DNA of 64,000 nucleotides from Desulfitobacterium metallireducens DSM 15288 (lineage in GTDB: Bacteria > Bacillota > Desulfitobacteriia > Desulfitobacteriales > Desulfitobacteriaceae). Position 1 is the first letter of the stretch; each line of letters opens with the position of its first letter. A program made the position numbers and the translations under genes. Shown in pieces: positions 8,109-34,972 of this stretch. The stretch lies in NCBI RefSeq assembly GCF_000231405.2, contig NZ_CP007032.1:1798001-1862000 (forward strand). The letters are read 5' to 3'. The notes beneath the pieces were generated by a model, which was given only the letters and a program-made list of their open reading frames with translations, made no database searches and was not told the origin of the DNA.

Positions 8109-8195
8109 TGGTGCGGTCGAGAGGACTTGAACCTCCATGCCCTTGCGAGCACTAGGACCTGAACCTAGCGCGTCTGCCAGTTCCGCCACGACCGC
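8109..8195 (-). tRNA. tRNA-Leu (anticodon CAG)
   Basis: The minus strand folds as a class II tRNA of 87 nt. It has acceptor stem GCGGTCG/CGACCGC, a D arm, anticodon stem CTAGG/CCTAG enclosing the loop TTCAGGT (anticodon CAG), a long variable arm, a T arm with GGTTCAAGTCC, and encoded CCA. It is also the attachment target for the accessory region on its left. Confidence 0.95.
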
Positions 8196-26846: not shown

Positions 26847-26875
26847 TTCACAATTTGAGCAAAATTGCATATAAT
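26847..26875 (+). promoter_or_regulatory. Sigma-A promoter of ncRNA copy 1
   Basis: TTCACA (26847-26852), a 17-nt spacer and a perfect TATAAT (26870-26875) read rightward into the repeated RNA element. The second copy of the element has an equivalent promoter with identical spacing. Confidence 0.7.
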
Positions 26876-26881
26876 AAAGAC

Positions 26882-26986
26882 AAAGCCTTATAAAGGCACC
26901 GCGAGTACCCCTATAAGGCTCATCATGATTAGGTAAATCTTAACTCAATTCTTGGACTAGCTGAACGTTTTAGCTAGTTCTTTTTT
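26882..26986 (+). ncRNA. Candidate small RNA, copy 1 (about 105 nt)
   Basis: Predicted transcript from a sigma-A promoter to an intrinsic terminator. Parts: a 5' hairpin closed by GCCTTATA/TATAAGGC with apical ACCGCGAGT; a middle hairpin around TTAGGTAAATC; and a 3' terminator ACTAGCT/AGCTAGT followed by TTCTTTTTT. Copy 2 (at 32.65 kb) shares this layout and most of the sequence. The RNA ends at the stop codon of a decayed cytochrome gene on the other strand. On the minus strand the first hairpin could also terminate that gene. I recognise no known RNA family. Confidence 0.6.
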
Positions 26987-27535
26987 ATCAGTTAGGAGCT
27001 ACGGCCGTCTTGTTGTGGCAAGCTTGGCAAACGCCCATGTTCGGTAAGCGTGAGAGCCGTTGTACGAGAAGTATCATAAGTTTGGAGAATCGTGTCTCCT
27101 TTAGCATTGGTGCCCGAGAAAGCTGTACCTTGTCCGAGTTGAGTCAGGGAAGCTTAATAAACGCATCACTGGTTCCATGAGCATAGTGGCAGTATAAATA
27201 GTCAACTGAAGATGCCTTAGATGCTGCATTTTCTAAGGATTGGAGGTATTAAATTTGAGTCCTGGATAAGAAGCATTTAAGGAATTAGGATCTGCAAGAT
27301 AAAAGCCAACAGAGTAACGATAAGCTTGAAGATAGTCTCCTAGCATTACATTATAAGCTCCACCTATTCTTAACTTTAAGGGTCCGTCAGCATTTATCGC
27401 TTGTTGATCAGGCTTTCGATCTCTTGCCTCAATATGAGTGGCATTGATTGCGTTTGTTTTTACATCAGTAAATCCGTTCGGAAAACTAAATTGGCCATTT
27501 CCACTTCCCACTCCACCTAACTCCCATAGTTCCAC
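26985..27535 (-). pseudogene. Chimeric pseudogene: NHL-protein fragment fused to a cytochrome C-terminus
   Basis: The 5' part (ELWELGGVGSGNGQFSFPNGF) matches the last NHL repeat of the neighbouring propeller proteins. It then jumps into GGAYNVMLGDYLQAYRYSVGF, which matches the C-terminal half of the 6-heme cytochrome at 32.9 kb (GGAYDELLGDYRKAYRHSVGF). A stop at 27233 and at least two more frame changes follow. One heme motif is lost (CLTCHYAH has become YLYCHYAH), while the last survives out of frame (CQACHNKTAVAPN). This is the scar of a lost NHL-cytochrome pair. Confidence 0.8.
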
Positions 27536-27624: not shown

Positions 27625-29511
27625 TTAGATTGTATATGTTATGTTTCTGGTAACAGTAGTAACATTACCTGCAGCATCCGTTGCAGTTACAGTAATTATG
27701 TTAGTACCCGTTACAAGAGAGATGGTTTTGACGAAATTGCCATTGACATCTGGGTAAACTCTGACATTATTAACTTTTATGATGCTACCAACCTCTGACT
27801 GGCCTGTTATCGTTATCTGGGCTAAGCTAACTGTAGTATCTTCAGCAGGTGAACTCACTACGAGTGATGGTGCAGTTGTGTCTTGTGTAACCGTTCTCAA
27901 TACGGTGGTGGTTCCTGCCACTACCGTTATTGTGTTTGTTCCATCCTGAAGCGTTAATTCATAACTGTAATTGCCACTAGCATCAGGTGTTACGACGATG
28001 TCATTGATGGTGAGTGCTGTTCCCATAGCCACTTTTCCGGTGACCACTACGGTTCCCTGATTGGTTAATAGATTATCCGCTGGGGCCGTTACGGTTACAT
28101 ATGGGGCGATCACTGTAATGTTCTTTTCCGTTACGTTACCTGCGGCATCCGTTGCGATGACTTTGATCGTATTTTGTCCGAGGTTCACGGTGATTGCTTT
28201 CGAAAAGTTACCGCTGCCATCGGGATAAACCATTACTCCATTTATTTTGACACTTGCTCCTACTTCTACTGTTACTGTTCCGCTTACAGTAACCTGGGTT
28301 CCACTCAGATTTTCACCCTCTTTGGGACTGCTAATAACCAGGTCTGGTCCATTTGTGTCTTTTGTAACCATTCTCGTTACGGTTGTGCTTCCTGCCACTA
28401 CCGTTATTGTGTTTGTTCCATCAGCTAGGGTATAGGTATAACTGTAGTTTCCACTGGCGTCCGGTATTACAACAGTGTCATTGATGGTGAGTTCTGTTCC
28501 CACGGCAACTTTTCCAGTGACCACTACGGTTCCCTGATTTGTTAGTAGATTATCCGCTGGGACCGTCACGGTTACATACGGGGCAATCACTGAAATGTTC
28601 TTTTCCGTTACGTTACCTGCGGCATCTGTTGCAATGACTTTGATCGTATTTTGTCCGAGGTTCACGGTGATTGCTTTCGAGAAGTTACCGCTGCCATCGG
28701 GATAAACCATTGCTCCGTTTATTTTGAGACTTGCTCCTACTTCTACCATTCCAGTTACGGTAACCTGGGTTCCACTAAGATTATCGCCCTCTTTAGGACT
28801 ACTAATGGTCAGGGGCGCCCCTGTTGTGTCCTGTGTAACAGTTCTCGTTATGATGGTAGTTCCTGCTTTTACTGTGATGGTATTGGTTCCATCCTGAAGC
28901 GCTAATTCATAACTGTAATTGTCACTGGCATCCGGTGTCACGGAGGCATTATTGATGGTGAGTTCTGTTCCCACGGCAACTTTTCCGGTGACCACTACGG
29001 TTGCCTGATTGGTTAGTAGATTATCCGCTGGGACCGTCACGGTTACATACGGGGCAATCACTGAAATGTTCTTTTCCGTTACGTTACCTGCCGTATCTGT
29101 TGCAATGACTTTGATCGTATTTTGTCCGAGGTTCACGGTGATTGCTTTCGAAAAGTTACCGCTGCCATCGGGATAAACCATTGCTCCGTTTATTTTGAGA
29201 CTTGCTCCTACTTCTACCAATCCAGTTATGGTAACCTGGGTTCCACTAAGATTATCGCCCTCTTTGGGACTACTAATGGTCAGGAGCGCCCCTGTTGTGT
29301 CTTGCGTAACAGTTCTCGTTACGATGGTAGTTCCTGCTTTTACTGTGATGGTATTGGTTCCATCCTTAAGCGCTAATTCATAACTGTAATCGCCACTGGC
29401 ATCCGGTGTTACAATGGTGTCATTGATGGTGACTTCTGTTCCCGCGGCAACTTTTCCGGTGACCACTACGGTTGCCTGATTGGTCAGCAGATTATCTGAT
29501 GGGGCCGTCAC
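27625..29511 (-). CDS. Ig-repeat secreted protein, C-terminal part (downstream of a frameshift)
   Basis: This frame encodes about 628 residues of tandem Ig-like repeats (LLTNQATVVVTGKVAVGTEL then GQNTIKVIATDAAGNVTE). It is the continuation of the gene starting at 32288. The GTG at 29511 lies in mid-repeat, has no ribosome-binding site, and gives no signal peptide, so it is not a true start. Restoring one base at 29591-29593 joins both parts into one protein of about 1,554 aa. The C-terminus (VTTVTRNITYTI) has no LPXTG or other anchor. It is followed by a strong terminator. Confidence 0.7.
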   Translation of the reverse strand: MTAPSDNLLTNQATVVVTGKVAAGTEVTINDTIVTPDASGDYSYELALKDGTNTITVKAGTTIVTRTVTQDTTGALLTISSPKEGDNLSGTQVTITGLVEVGASLKINGAMVYPDGSGNFSKAITVNLGQNTIKVIATDTAGNVTEKNISVIAPYVTVTVPADNLLTNQATVVVTGKVAVGTELTINNASVTPDASDNYSYELALQDGTNTITVKAGTTIITRTVTQDTTGAPLTISSPKEGDNLSGTQVTVTGMVEVGASLKINGAMVYPDGSGNFSKAITVNLGQNTIKVIATDAAGNVTEKNISVIAPYVTVTVPADNLLTNQGTVVVTGKVAVGTELTINDTVVIPDASGNYSYTYTLADGTNTITVVAGSTTVTRMVTKDTNGPDLVISSPKEGENLSGTQVTVSGTVTVEVGASVKINGVMVYPDGSGNFSKAITVNLGQNTIKVIATDAAGNVTEKNITVIAPYVTVTAPADNLLTNQGTVVVTGKVAMGTALTINDIVVTPDASGNYSYELTLQDGTNTITVVAGTTTVLRTVTQDTTAPSLVVSSPAEDTTVSLAQITITGQSEVGSIIKVNNVRVYPDVNGNFVKTISLVTGTNIITVTATDAAGNVTTVTRNITYTI

Positions 29512-30700
29512 GGTTACATACGGGGCGATGACTGAAATGTCCTTTTCCGTTACGTTACCTGCGGCATCTGTTGCAATGACTTTGATCGTATTTGTCCGAG
29601 GTTCACGGTGATTGCTTTCGAGAAGTTACCGCTGCCATCGGGATAAACCATTGCTCCGTTTATTTTGAGGCTTGCTCCTACTTCTACCGTTCCGGTTACT
29701 ATAACCTGGGTTCCACTGAGATTCTCCCCTTCTATTGGACTGTTAATGGTCAGGATCGGTCCAGTTGTGTCTTTTGTTACATTTCTTATTACTGTGGTGG
29801 TTCCAGCTACTACCGTTATCGTGTTTGTTCCATCGGCTAAGTTTAAGGTATTGGAAAAACTGTAATTGCCGCTGGCATCCGGTGTTACAATGGTGTCATT
29901 GATGGTGAGTTCTGTTCCCACGCCAACTTTTCCGGTGACCACTACGGTTCCCTGATTGGTCAGCAGATTATCTGCTGGGGCCGTGACGGTTACATACGGG
30001 GCGATCACTGAAATGTCCTTTTCCGTTACGTTACCTGCCGTATCTGTTGCGATGACCTGGATTATATTTTGTCCTAGGTTCAAGGTCATGGCTTTCATAT
30101 AGTTGCCGCTGGTATCGAGATTGACTGTTACTCCGTTTATTTTGAGGCTTGCTCCTTTTTCTACCGTTCCGGTTACTATAACCTGGGTTCCACTGAGATT
30201 CTCCCCTTCTATTGGACTGTTAATGGTCAGGATCGGTCCAGTTGTGTCTTTTGTTACATTTCTTATTACTGTGGTGGTTCCCGCCACTACCGTTATCGTG
30301 TTTGTTCCATCGGCTAAGTTTAAAGTACAAGGAAAACTGTAATTGCCGCTAGCATCTGGTGTTACTGGGGTGTTGTTAATGGTGAGCGGTGTCCCCACTA
30401 GCACTTTTCCAGTTACCATTACGGTTGCCTGATTGGTCAGCAGATTATCTGCTGGCGTCGTCACGGTCACATACGGCGCAATCACTGGAATGTCCTTTTC
30501 CGTTACGTTACCTGCCGTATCTGTTGCGATAACTTTGATCGTATTTTGTCCGAGGTTCACGGTGATTGCTTTGGAAAAGTTACCGCTGGCAGCGGGATAA
30601 ATCATTGCCCCGTTTATTTTGAGACTTGCTCCTACTTCTACTGTTCCAGTTACGGTAACCTGGGTTCCACTAAGATTCTCGCCTTCTCTTGGACTGCTAA
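27880..30700 (-). repeat. Tandem DNA repeats of about 460-480 bp encoding paired Ig-like domains
   Basis: The landmark TTTTCCGTTACGTTACCTGC recurs near 28134, 28611, 29072, 29543, 30019 and 30495, giving six units of about 461-477 bp. Each encodes about 155 residues: one GENLSGTQVTVTG domain plus one LLTNQ-TVVVTGKV domain. High DNA identity implies recent expansion or gene conversion. Confidence 0.85.
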
Positions 30701-32288
30701 TGGTCAATTCCGGACCTACGGGTATGGGATTGACCACATTAATAACCCGTGTTACAGATGAAGCCTTATTTCCGTTTGAATCAATTGCACTATAGGTTAG
30801 CGTATAACTTCCTACCATGTTTATATCGACGCTTCCGCTTGCAATTACTGTAACGTTTTGATCATAGTTATCACTTGCGGTTGCTCCAGGATCACTGAAG
30901 TTGCTGCCTACCTGTACCACTAAAGGATCCTCTCCGTTTAGAGTGATAACAGGGGCTTCGTTATCCACTACCTCAACCGTTCTTGTCTTAGTGGTTTGGT
31001 TACCGCTGATATCTGCTGCACTGTAAGTAATCGTATAGGTTCCAACCGTATTCGTATCGACGCTTCCGCTTGCAATTATTATAACGTTTTGATCATAGTT
31101 ATCACTTGCGGTTGCTCCAGGATCACTGAAGTTGCTGCCTATTTGTGCCACTAAAGGATCCTCTCCGTTTAGAGTGATAACAGGGGCTTCGCTATCCACT
31201 ACCTTAACCGTTCTCGTCTTAGTGGTTTTGTTACCACTGACATCTTCTGCACTGTAAGTAATCGTATAGGTTCCAACCGTATTCGTATCGACGCTTCCGC
31301 TTGCAATTACTGTAACGTTCTGATCATAGTTATCACTTGCGGTTGCTCCAGGATCACTGAAGTTGCTGCCTACCTGTACCACTAAAGGATCCTCTCCGTT
31401 TAGAGTGATAACAGGGGCTTCGTTATCCACTACCTCAACCGTTCTCGTCTTAGTGGTTTGGTTACCGCTAATATCTGCTGCACTGTAAGTAATCGTATAG
31501 GTTCCAACCGTATTCGTATCGACGCTTCCGCTTGCAATTATTGTAACGTTTTGATCATAGTTATCACTTGCGGTTGCTCCAGGATCACTGAAGTTGCCTC
31601 CTACCTGTACCACTAAAGGATCCTCTCCGTTTAGAGTGATAACAGGTGGTAAATTATCATAAAAACCGGTACGAGTAATAATCGTTACTGTTGGTGGTTT
31701 AGTTGAATTGTCAGTATCAGATACTGTTATTGTATTAAGACCAGGAACTAAGGGAACTGTTTGGCTAAATTCACCCACCCCACTGAACGCTGGTTCATTA
31801 TTAATCTGGACCGTTGTTGAATTCTCTGCCGTTCCACTAATAATGATTGAATCTTGATTGATAAGGAAACCCTGAACAGGAATTACTAAGGTAAGCCCTG
31901 GCGCAATTGTATCCACATAAAAATCACATTTTTGTTTTTTTTCATTTATTGGTTTCCCATGTTTATCATATACTGTACTCCAAAATGTTAAAACATTATG
32001 TCCAGAAATAGCATCAAAGGTAACACTATTCAGCGCCGTTTTCTCAATATCACTACCCCATTGATAATGAATCGTAGCATCGGAATATTCTTCAGCATTA
32101 TAATCCGCTGTTAAAGAAATTGTAAGTACGTTTGTACTGCTCTGGTTAGCAGGATTCACTGTAATAGAAGTATGTACCGGTCTGTCTTCTGCATAAACAG
32201 TTTTAGTTAAGAACGTAAAACACAATGTCAGAATAAAAATAGATAATATTGCAAACTTGCTTCTATTCTTAAAATTCAATAAATGCAC
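29550..32288 (-). CDS. Ig-repeat secreted protein, N-terminal part (frameshifted gene)
   Basis: The start is a GTG at 32288 preceded by GAGGAGGGGG; it opens a signal peptide (FAILSIFILTLCFTFLTK, ending VYA). An ATG at 32354 has a weaker site and would add 22 residues before the signal. The mature protein has an N-terminal unique domain, four DUF5011-like Ig repeats (ITLNGEDPLVVQVG then GTYTITYSA), and Ig-like pairs. It ends prematurely after LGQIRSKS because one T is missing from a T4 run at 29591. It is probably a wall-associated adhesin or scaffold for the neighbouring cytochromes. Confidence 0.75.
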   Translation of the reverse strand: MHLLNFKNRSKFAILSIFILTLCFTFLTKTVYAEDRPVHTSITVNPANQSSTNVLTISLTADYNAEEYSDATIHYQWGSDIEKTALNSVTFDAISGHNVLTFWSTVYDKHGKPINEKKQKCDFYVDTIAPGLTLVIPVQGFLINQDSIIISGTAENSTTVQINNEPAFSGVGEFSQTVPLVPGLNTITVSDTDNSTKPPTVTIITRTGFYDNLPPVITLNGEDPLVVQVGGNFSDPGATASDNYDQNVTIIASGSVDTNTVGTYTITYSAADISGNQTTKTRTVEVVDNEAPVITLNGEDPLVVQVGSNFSDPGATASDNYDQNVTVIASGSVDTNTVGTYTITYSAEDVSGNKTTKTRTVKVVDSEAPVITLNGEDPLVAQIGSNFSDPGATASDNYDQNVIIIASGSVDTNTVGTYTITYSAADISGNQTTKTRTVEVVDNEAPVITLNGEDPLVVQVGSNFSDPGATASDNYDQNVTVIASGSVDINMVGSYTLTYSAIDSNGNKASSVTRVINVVNPIPVGPELTISSPREGENLSGTQVTVTGTVEVGASLKINGAMIYPAASGNFSKAITVNLGQNTIKVIATDTAGNVTEKDIPVIAPYVTVTTPADNLLTNQATVMVTGKVLVGTPLTINNTPVTPDASGNYSFPCTLNLADGTNTITVVAGTTTVIRNVTKDTTGPILTINSPIEGENLSGTQVIVTGTVEKGASLKINGVTVNLDTSGNYMKAMTLNLGQNIIQVIATDTAGNVTEKDISVIAPYVTVTAPADNLLTNQGTVVVTGKVGVGTELTINDTIVTPDASGNYSFSNTLNLADGTNTITVVAGTTTVIRNVTKDTTGPILTINSPIEGENLSGTQVIVTGTVEVGASLKINGAMVYPDGSGNFSKAITVNLGQIRSKSLQQMPQVT
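30918..31640 (-). repeat. 231-bp tandem repeats encoding DUF5011-like domains
   Basis: The segment CACTAAAGGATCCTCTCCG (one base varies) starts at 30918, 31149, 31380 and 31611, an exact 231-bp (77-codon) period over four units. The near identity of the units points to recent duplication or ongoing homogenisation. Confidence 0.9.
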
Positions 32289-32610
32289 TTTTTTCCCCCT
32301 CCTCGTTTTAGGATTATGTCTACAACCAATTCGCTTATAAGTCCATCCTTGCACCCTCCTCTGTAGTCTTCTACCAGTTTAAATATCGTCTTTTTCAAGT
32401 TAAATATCAGCATACAAAAGAATACTTTAAAAATTCCCAAAGGGATAATACAAATTATCCCTTTGTACACTATATTTTCTACTTATGTAGTCTTGAAGAA
32501 CTTACCACTACGAATTCTACGGAGGCAGCCCTTAAGAGCACTTAATAAGCAATTCTCAAAATCACCATTTGTACATTCAGGCTAATTTTTAGCTTATCTG
32601 CCGAAATATG

Positions 32611-32639
32611 TTAACATTTTGAATAAAATTGCTTATAAT
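32611..32639 (+). promoter_or_regulatory. Sigma-A promoter of ncRNA copy 2
   Basis: TTAACA (32611-32616), a 17-nt spacer and TATAAT (32634-32639) read rightward. The -10 box and spacing are conserved with copy 1, although the DNA around them differs. Confidence 0.7.
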
Positions 32640-32645
32640 AAAAGG

Positions 32646-32751
32646 GAAGCCTTATAAAGGCACCGCGAGTACCTCTATAAGGCTGATCGATTTAGGTAAA
32701 TCCTAATTCATTACTTGGACTAGCTGAACGTTTTAGCTAGTTCTTTTTTTA
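32646..32751 (+). ncRNA. Candidate small RNA, copy 2 (about 105 nt)
   Basis: Same order of parts as copy 1. The 5' hairpin closed by GCCTTATA/TATAAGGC has one change (CCTC for CCCC) that improves pairing. In the middle hairpin, CCTAA replaces CTTAA opposite TTAGG, so G-C replaces G-U. The 3' terminator ACTAGCT/AGCTAGT is identical and followed by TTCTTTTTTT. It lies downstream of, and opposite to, the 6-heme cytochrome gene. A cis-antisense, 3'-end or trans-acting role is possible; the function is unknown. Confidence 0.6.
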
Positions 32752-32790
32752 TCATCTAGAAGCTATACCCGTCTGGTTGTGGCAAACTTC
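32752..32790 (-). pseudogene. Remnant of the former 3' end of the cytochrome gene
   Basis: The minus strand reads VCHNQTGIASR then stop, matching the ending of the pseudogene next to ncRNA copy 1 (ACHNKTAVAPN, stop). It lies 64 bp beyond the present stop of the 6-heme cytochrome. The intact gene was therefore extended or rearranged at its 3' end, leaving its old C-terminus behind. Confidence 0.55.
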
Positions 32791-32853
32791 AAAACTATGG
32801 TTTATTGCTACTTTTCACGTATTATATTGATCTATCCTCACACTTGTATACGT

Positions 32854-34866
32854 TTATTTTGCAATGACTTTGAAGTAAGCGGTATTGCTTGCAACAACAG
32901 CTCCTGAAGCATTTGTAACTACTTCAGTAACTTGATAAATTTCACCAACTGTTGCACCGCTCAGCACTTTGGCACTGAGTCTTGTAATTTGATCTACGCT
33001 AGAATTAACTGTAACTGCAGAACTAACATTAACAGTAGAAGTAGTAGGTGTTGCAGTTACAACGTCTGCGAAGTTCTCTGCACTAGTTCTTGCTGAGATT
33101 TTAAATGTACCAGCAGTACTATCAAACAGATCGCTGAAGTTAACTGCTGTACCATCAAGTTTTGCCAAGCTGAGTGATGTTGTTAATCCTGTAACTTCTG
33201 TACCACTAGATAACGTAAAGTCTTTAGCAAGAGAAGCTGCCTGTTTAACCTCTTGTGGAGCTGCAGCGGAATACGTTGCTGTAGCTAGGTTAATTCCAAG
33301 GACTGGAGATTTACCTTCTTTGTTATGGCAAACTTGGCAAACGCCCATGTTAGGTAAGCGTTTAAGAGCTGTTGTACGGGTAGTATCGTAAGTTTGGAGG
33401 ATCTTGTCGCCTGCAGCATTGGTGCCCGCAAAGGTTGTACCTTGTCCGAGTTGACTCAGAGAAGTTTCAATAAACTTATCACTAGTTCCATGAGCATAGT
33501 GACAGGTTAAGCAGTCAACTGTAGGAGCAATAGCGCCAGGTGCCTTCGGATTAGAGGTATCAAATTTGAGTCCAGCATAAGTAGAGATCAAGGAATTAGC
33601 ATCAGTAAAGTTAGGATCGGCAGTGGTAGCAGTGCGCGTAAAGCCAACGGAGTGACGATAAGCTTTACGATAATCTCCAAGGAGTTCATCATAAGCTCCA
33701 CCAGTCCCGTATGAGGCTGAATCAGTTTTATTTACGTTGTTGTAGTCAGTATGGCAAGCACCGCAGAATTGGTTGATACCATTTTCATATTTAACGGTTT
33801 CAGCTGCGGTTAACTTAGCAGCAACCGTCATTTCAACAACTAGAGCCGGTTTATAGGCGGCTGTAACTGTACCAGTTTGAGGTCCTGTGAATGTAACAGT
33901 CCCATCTTTGTATTGAACTGTAAAATCAGTATTCTCTTTTTTCGTCACACCAGCGACTTTAACAACAGGCTCATTATTACGGCCACTCATCCAGTTGCCT
34001 TTGGAAGCTTTGAACACTGTATTAGTTGCATCAGTAGCTGTGAGCGTATCAGGAGTTGTTTTCAATGCTGTAAAAGCTGCAGAAGCAACTCCGTTGACAT
34101 CAGGATTGAGAATACGAGCATTACCATAGGTTCCATGAGGATCATGGCAAGCGATACAAGTAAATTCAGTATTCCAGTCTCCATTTATATCTTTGTTGCC
34201 AGTTGCACTAGCGAAGTCTTCAGCACCACCGGGTGCAGCTGCGGTTGTTACAAAAGCTGTTTCCTTCGGAGACATACCATGGTTTGAAAGGCCTTCTGTA
34301 GCTGCTTCCGAACCTGTTCCGAAAAGTCCACCGGAGTTCACCTGAGAACCAGCAGCGTGAGTACCGTTAACGACGTCATAAGTAGCTGCTACTGTACCAT
34401 CATGGCAAGCCCAACATGCGGTCTGAGGGTCTTCCCATTGTAACAATGCACCAGTAGTATTAACCGAGGTGTGGATTGCGTGACAAGAAGCACAAGCATC
34501 AGAGGTTTTGCTATAAGCGCTGTGAATTACTTTGTTATTTGTGCTGTCATACTTAATTGGTTCGTTAAGGTTATCCGGGCTATCAAACCCAGTTCCACTA
34601 TTTCCACCTGTTTTGCCATCAGCATCAGGTGTCATGCGGTAGTTTTGACCAGTTACAGTAGTTACTGGGTTTCCATCTGCATCTAAGGATATGGTTCCAT
34701 CTGCGTTATACACAGCGGCATCTCCAACCCCTAGACCATTCGTTGTTAAGGTTTGTGCATCAATGCCAGTAAAATCTGGAGCAACCGTTGCTGCTGCGAA
34801 TGCAGTCGATGCAAAACCCAATGTGACTGCTAATGTAAGAGTGGCTAATAAGCCAAATTTACGCAT
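32854..34866 (-). CDS. Secreted 6-heme c-type cytochrome (670 aa)
   Basis: A signal peptide (MRKFGLLATLTLAVTLGF, ending AFA) precedes six CXXCH motifs: CASCH, CWACH, CIACH, CGACH, CLTCH and CQVCH. The first two match a doubled-CXXCH unit. Between hemes 3 and 4 there is a beta-rich insert (about 270-350). After the last heme comes a heme-free domain of about 150 residues with Ig-like character (SGTEVTGLTTSLSL, AYFKVIAK). The ATG at 34866 follows GGAAGGAGG; one 9 codons upstream does not. It follows an NHL gene and faces ncRNA copy 2. A terminal extracellular electron carrier is likely. Confidence 0.85.
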   Translation of the reverse strand: MRKFGLLATLTLAVTLGFASTAFAAATVAPDFTGIDAQTLTTNGLGVGDAAVYNADGTISLDADGNPVTTVTGQNYRMTPDADGKTGGNSGTGFDSPDNLNEPIKYDSTNNKVIHSAYSKTSDACASCHAIHTSVNTTGALLQWEDPQTACWACHDGTVAATYDVVNGTHAAGSQVNSGGLFGTGSEAATEGLSNHGMSPKETAFVTTAAAPGGAEDFASATGNKDINGDWNTEFTCIACHDPHGTYGNARILNPDVNGVASAAFTALKTTPDTLTATDATNTVFKASKGNWMSGRNNEPVVKVAGVTKKENTDFTVQYKDGTVTFTGPQTGTVTAAYKPALVVEMTVAAKLTAAETVKYENGINQFCGACHTDYNNVNKTDSASYGTGGAYDELLGDYRKAYRHSVGFTRTATTADPNFTDANSLISTYAGLKFDTSNPKAPGAIAPTVDCLTCHYAHGTSDKFIETSLSQLGQGTTFAGTNAAGDKILQTYDTTRTTALKRLPNMGVCQVCHNKEGKSPVLGINLATATYSAAAPQEVKQAASLAKDFTLSSGTEVTGLTTSLSLAKLDGTAVNFSDLFDSTAGTFKISARTSAENFADVVTATPTTSTVNVSSAVTVNSSVDQITRLSAKVLSGATVGEIYQVTEVVTNASGAVVASNTAYFKVIAK

Positions 34867-34892
34867 TCTATATTTCCTCCTTCCGATTGTCA

Positions 34893-34972
34893 AACATCCC
34901 TAGTTCTTTATGTTCTAATAGCTGTTTTACTCCCTCCTTTTTTATAGATTTGGAGACCTGCCGAGGGATGTT
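34893..34972 (-). promoter_or_regulatory. Leader with a 9-bp inverted repeat before the 6-heme cytochrome
   Basis: AACATCCCT (34893-34901) and AGGGATGTT (34964-34972) are perfect inverted repeats flanking about 62 nt, which contain an unused Shine-Dalgarno-like GGAGGGAG. The near arm ends about 10 nt before the real ribosome-binding site. It could stabilise the abundant cytochrome mRNA or control its translation. Confidence 0.4.

Follow-up and report, generated by a model that had tools for sequence, protein, structure and literature searches.

Results

Two copies of a promoter-to-terminator unit adjoin cytochrome remnants

Within the window (the whole 64,000-nucleotide stretch of DNA that was analysed), two segments lying 5.76 kb apart share 87% identity over 140 nt (copy 1, 26847-26986; copy 2, 32611-32751), and a search of the complete, single-contig genome (3.18 Mb) identified them as its sole instances. 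Each copy consists of a sigma-A-type promoter followed by three hairpins, the third of which is a rightward terminator (Table 1). A preceding sequence-only reading had described both segments at these positions, with a TATAAT box and 17-nt promoter spacing, a first hairpin (GCCTTATA/TATAAGGC) and an identical ACTAGCT/AGCTAGT terminator with a T-run. These elements were all recovered: both promoters match the consensus at 11/12 positions, the first hairpin is present, and the terminator stem is the same in the two copies, followed by six and seven T residues. As that reading had also noted, no protein gene follows the unit rightward, and the T-run comes within 2 nt of a cytochrome TGA on the opposite strand (26988-26990 for copy 1; 32752-32754 for copy 2). 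The duplication, the hairpin anatomy and the terminator are thus directly visible in the DNA. For the RNA itself, the 5′ start was inferred 6-8 nt past the -10 box and the 3′ end was placed in the T-run.

Two other readings of the unit were rejected. A leader or riboswitch is not compatible with the lack of a rightward gene behind it. A short peptide (a 23-25 aa TTG frame, KPYKGTAST..IRLI, found in both copies) was dismissed because the predicted transcript begins downstream of its initiation codon.

Table 1. Positions of the duplicated unit, its predicted parts and the adjoining cytochrome sequences
Feature	Position	Strand	Description
Frame-broken multiheme cytochrome remnant, fused upstream to NHL-repeat end	26988..27535	-	similar, in different frames, to intact-cytochrome residues 386-450 and 455-530
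Decayed cytochrome C-terminal tail (VCHNQTGIASR*)	32752..32790	-	outside the intact cytochrome gene 32854-34893; 31/43 nt identical to copy 1 tail
Promoter, copy 1	26847..26875	+	TTCACA (26847-26852), 17-nt spacer, TATAAT (26870-26875); 11/12 consensus
Promoter, copy 2	32611..32639	+	TTAACA, 17-nt spacer, TATAAT; 11/12 consensus
Predicted small RNA, copy 1 (~105 nt)	26882..26986	+	fold z = -4.1; covariance model match 26881-26988
Predicted small RNA, copy 2 (~105 nt)	32645..32750	+	fold z = -5.1; covariance model match 32645-32751
Hairpin 1, copy 1	26883..26921	-	18 pairs, 3-nt loop leftward, then TGTCTTTATT
Hairpin 1, copy 2	32648..32684	-	17 pairs leftward, weaker T-rich tail (TCCCTTTTAT)
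Middle hairpin, copy 1	26929..26943	+	TTAGG-TAAAT-CTTAA
Middle hairpin, copy 2	32692..32706	+	TTAGG-TAAAT-CCTAA
Intrinsic terminator, copy 1	26954..26986	+	12-pair stem and T6
Intrinsic terminator, copy 2	32717..32750	+	stem same as copy 1, and T7

Alignment of the two copies showed that their likeness begins at the -35 box and stops at ~27031, ~45 nt into the leftward cytochrome tail, with flanks that are near background (31/86 identical positions upstream and 47/129 past the cytochrome tail). Both copies directly adjoin a short leftover of an older cytochrome C-terminus (CQACHNKTAVAPN and EVCHNQTGIASR), while the nearest intact cytochrome gene (32854-34893) ends ~100 nt from copy 2. One duplication carrying the cytochrome tail together with the element explains the setting of both copies. 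Related genomes carry cytochrome homologues that are not followed by the element, and in one relative (G010) an NHL gene lies within ~60 nt after the cytochrome. The proposal that the small RNA is linked to this cytochrome family is not supported in that form, since it rests on one duplication, the relatives' cytochromes lack the element and the cytochrome at copy 1 is frame-broken. As read from these genomes, the physical link between cytochrome and element is real, yet it is a single evolutionary event and not a recurrent association.

The surrounding cluster bears further signs of rearrangement. On the - strand at 27233-27535, the remnant frame runs from the final residues of an NHL-repeat protein (ELWELGGVGSGNGQFSFPNG) straight into the C-terminal portion of a multiheme cytochrome, a scar left where NHL and cytochrome genes of the cluster recombined. 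At 32752-32854, the intact cytochrome has a C-terminal extension past its last CXXCH and is followed by the remnant of the older C-terminus; the gene looks as though it had acquired a new end by insertion. Between the two copies (27625-32354, - strand), two adjoining Ig-repeat frames resemble one large gene split near 29590 by a one-base frame change (NLGQIRSKSLQQMPQVT in place of NLGQNTIKVIATDAAGN), which may reflect a frameshift, phase variation or a sequencing error.

Promoter and terminator are paired far more often than in shuffled sequence

Both 11/12 promoters are the joint best on the + strand between positions 22 and 38 kb of the window. To relate the promoter-terminator arrangement to its background, 822 kb of the same genome, the window included, were scanned for promoters matching at least 11/12 positions with a same-strand terminator at most 160 nt downstream. 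Eight pairs were recovered, seven of them non-coding or nearly so: copies 1 and 2, two tRNA genes (one at 8112-8195, another near 2.1707 Mb), the leader of a TerC-like gene and two others. In intergenic stretches alone there were five pairs, whereas 40 dinucleotide-preserving shuffles averaged 0.025; given this excess and the recovery of tRNA genes and a leader, the filter is fairly specific for genuine RNA units. A 25-mer core of the element occurs twice where no occurrence is expected, and both predicted RNAs fold better than all 200 shuffles. In silico, each copy has its own promoter, its own Rho-independent terminator, no coding frame and a stable fold, the general features of an intrinsically terminated sRNA gene.

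An orphan terminator on its own would be unremarkable, because 46 of the 156 strong intergenic terminators in the 822 kb also lack an obvious same-strand gene immediately upstream. Here, the left-hand neighbour genes are oriented leftward and leave the rightward terminator without another nearby client.

Elsewhere in the genome, a ~140 nt promoter-to-terminator unit with neither a coding frame nor an Rfam match (1643792-1643963, - strand) is a candidate RNA gene. At 1754481-1754633 (+ strand), the promoter-terminator leader that lies 50 nt before the TerC-like gene looks similar to that of a manganese (yybP-ykoY) riboswitch, with an Rfam score below threshold.

Structural parts change slowly between the copies

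Changes between copies 1 and 2 are unevenly distributed. Hairpin 1, the terminator hairpin and the next 8 nt differ at 2/74 sites, compared with 8/30 in the linker and middle region and 12/43 in the cytochrome tail. The contrast between structure and cytochrome tail is significant (Fisher p ~1e-4), a value that is optimistic because the partition into parts was chosen after viewing the alignment. The -10 box is unchanged and the -35 box is identical at 5/6 positions. This bears out the earlier description of sequence that has drifted outside boxes and stems that were kept.

The T-rich stretch leftward of hairpin 1 has drifted (TTTGTC vs TTCCC), while the TATAAT/ATTATA box just beyond it has not, a pattern better explained by a promoter than by a leftward U-tract alone. 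Within the paired part of hairpin 1, the lone change converts G-U to A-U on the leftward strand and an A-C clash to A-U on the rightward strand. The middle hairpin had been credited with a pairing-preserving change; the hairpin is present and its + strand pairing is kept, but the lone change is one-sided (G-U to G-C). No compensatory double changes were found between the copies, a comparison of only two sequences.

Hairpins favour opposite strands

On the - strand, hairpin 1 forms a continuous stem of 17-18 pairs that includes G-U pairs; on the + strand it contains A-C mismatches. Its calculated stability is -24.7 kcal/mol leftward vs -13.5 rightward in copy 1, and -24.3 leftward vs -15.1 rightward in copy 2; the copy 1 hairpin is the top leftward terminator-like site of the region. 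Hairpins 2 and 3 instead show their best pairing on the rightward strand. The terminator stem has two G-U pairs on the + strand and A-C clashes on the - strand, and in copy 1 it reaches -13.3 kcal/mol rightward vs -7.3 leftward.

Past hairpin 1, the leftward strand continues with TTTGTCTTTATT in copy 1 and TTCCCTTTTATT in copy 2, a moderate U-tract. Because hairpin 1 is best paired leftward and a T-rich stretch follows its stem, the leftward cytochrome transcript probably ends there, the hairpin having a second role as the 5′ stem-loop of the predicted rightward RNA. The locus would then hold two overlapping convergent units, a predicted ~105 nt rightward RNA and the 3′ end of the leftward cytochrome transcript. 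The proposal of a functional small RNA gene requires amendment in this respect: a rightward promoter-to-terminator unit does occur twice with its structural parts kept, but hairpin 1 is much better paired leftward and this part very likely doubles as the cytochrome terminator.

A promoter-like site, TATACA-18-TATAAT (10/12), is located just behind the intact cytochrome (32821-32850, - strand) and could start a short RNA that runs leftward and stops at copy 2's hairpin 1.

The element is confined to one genome among those searched

No family in Rfam release 15 matched at the gathering threshold or at relaxed thresholds, in agreement with the initial impression that no RNA family fits. The suggested search for homologues by BLASTN and covariance model returned nothing among ~110 relatives: BLASTN across 60 relatives detected no homologue beyond the two own copies, and a covariance model run across 100 relatives and a class set found these two copies only. 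An exact 17-nt core had 11 matches in 84,980 species genomes (257 Gb), spread over unrelated phyla and of the order expected by chance. Viral contigs, plasmids and phages contained nothing relevant. An unfiltered model search of cytochrome-bearing loci in relatives gave a 21-bit match (locus L060), which was rejected because it is that gene's ordinary leftward terminator; the window itself gives a 19.9-bit chance match. On the searches made, the element is a credible new sRNA candidate, ordinary-looking and restricted to one lineage.

A candidate small RNA gene convergent with a cytochrome transcript

In the proposed mechanism, RNA polymerase would start just right of TATAAT and stop at the ACTAGCT/AGCTAGT terminator, producing an RNA of ~105 nt that has a stem-loop at its 5′ end and the terminator at its 3′ end, with a partly open stretch in between. 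The RNA of each copy would converge on the leftward multiheme cytochrome transcript and be wholly antisense to its 3′UTR. Read leftward, the DNA of hairpin 1 forms a perfect 17-18-pair hairpin that is the probable end of the cytochrome transcript, so that the convergent units would overlap. By geometry, complementarity to the opposing transcript would be full, provided that the leftward transcript reaches hairpin 1. The RNA would most likely act by base-pairing, in cis on the cytochrome 3′UTR, in trans on other mRNAs, or both; Hfq, for which the genome has a gene, may take part. A crude predictor applied to 731 predicted genes (822 kb) gave no target above shuffled-sequence background, and the start regions of the cytochrome cluster ranked unremarkably, offering no sign of RyhB-like pairing with cytochrome 5′ regions.

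We consider the best explanation, held with moderate confidence, to be that each copy is a gene for a base-pairing small RNA, convergent on and antisense to a cytochrome 3′UTR. Against it stand the weaker rightward pairing of hairpin 1, the lack of homologues in the genomes searched and target scores no better than those of shuffled sequence. A bolder version, in which one DNA segment carries information on both strands (a small RNA's 5′ domain on one, the terminator of a multiheme cytochrome mRNA on the other) and the copies form an antisense circuit tuning the respiratory cytochrome cluster of a Gram-positive, metal-reducer-type bacterium, is speculative and we regard it as unlikely.

It is conceivable, if not the reading we would expect to prevail, that the unit makes no functional RNA and only separates transcription, the promoter match being incidental or noise-producing. 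Hairpin 1 would end the leftward cytochrome mRNA, for which its near-perfect leftward pairing and T-rich tail are well suited, and hairpin 3 would block stray rightward antisense transcription into the cytochrome gene, in keeping with the many orphan terminators in this genome that face the end of a convergent gene. Such a device does not account for 11/12 promoters with equal spacing in both copies, nor for a -10 box kept while the adjoining T-rich tail drifted. Moreover, the middle hairpin and both loops were kept, whereas a mere terminator needs no conserved loop, and the unit persisted though the adjoining cytochrome tails are remnants in both copies.

Persistence beside decaying cytochrome ends would also be expected of a trans-acting base-pairing sRNA that has nothing to do with cytochromes and merely lay beside such a gene when duplicated; its absence behind the relatives' cytochrome homologues and the presence of an Hfq gene point the same way. 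However, no target for it beat shuffled controls (731 predicted genes in 822 kb, crude predictor), and we hold this explanation to be improbable. Chance similarity, or a recent neutral duplicate without function, agrees with the finding of just two copies in one genome; it is very improbable in view of the uneven conservation (2/74 vs 12/43) and the base rates of promoter-terminator pairs. A further candidate identity is the antisense member of a Fst/par-like type I toxin-antitoxin pair, which would converge on the mRNA of a small toxin; in fst-Sm/srSm (PMC3543317), a small convergent RNA likewise overlaps a terminator region with its end. The opposite strand of neither copy contains a small hydrophobic frame equipped with a ribosome site, the short leftward frames being only that of the cytochrome tail and an unrelated one of 23 residues, and this identity is extremely unlikely.

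Comparison with known systems

To our knowledge, no small RNA is known for the multiheme-cytochrome clusters of Desulfitobacterium-type bacteria, and a literature search found none. If transcribed, the element would therefore be a concrete and easily tested candidate small RNA at such a cluster. Its two diverged copies would also offer a straightforward example of convergent units that overlap, with the hairpin used on each strand preserved for that strand's direction.

RyhB of the metal-reducing bacterium Shewanella oneidensis, an Hfq-dependent small RNA controlling c-type cytochrome mRNAs (PMC5826389), is an example of the role that such an RNA might have and is not a homologue. Under Fur control, RyhB regulates in trans by way of its targets' 5′ ends, whereas the element described here showed no sequence relation to it in the Rfam searches and has no predicted target. 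The fst-Sm/srSm pair (PMC3543317) shares with it a small RNA transcribed convergently against a short mRNA and a common terminator region, but the present element lacks a toxin frame. Parallels in layout, though not homologues, are convergent antisense RNAs, 3′UTR overlaps and excludon-type arrangements, in which opposed transcripts overlap at their 3′ ends (PMC7154746). The element differs from these in being noncoding and in having its own terminator and two diverged copies; as in those systems, a small transcript would be antisense to an untranslated region.
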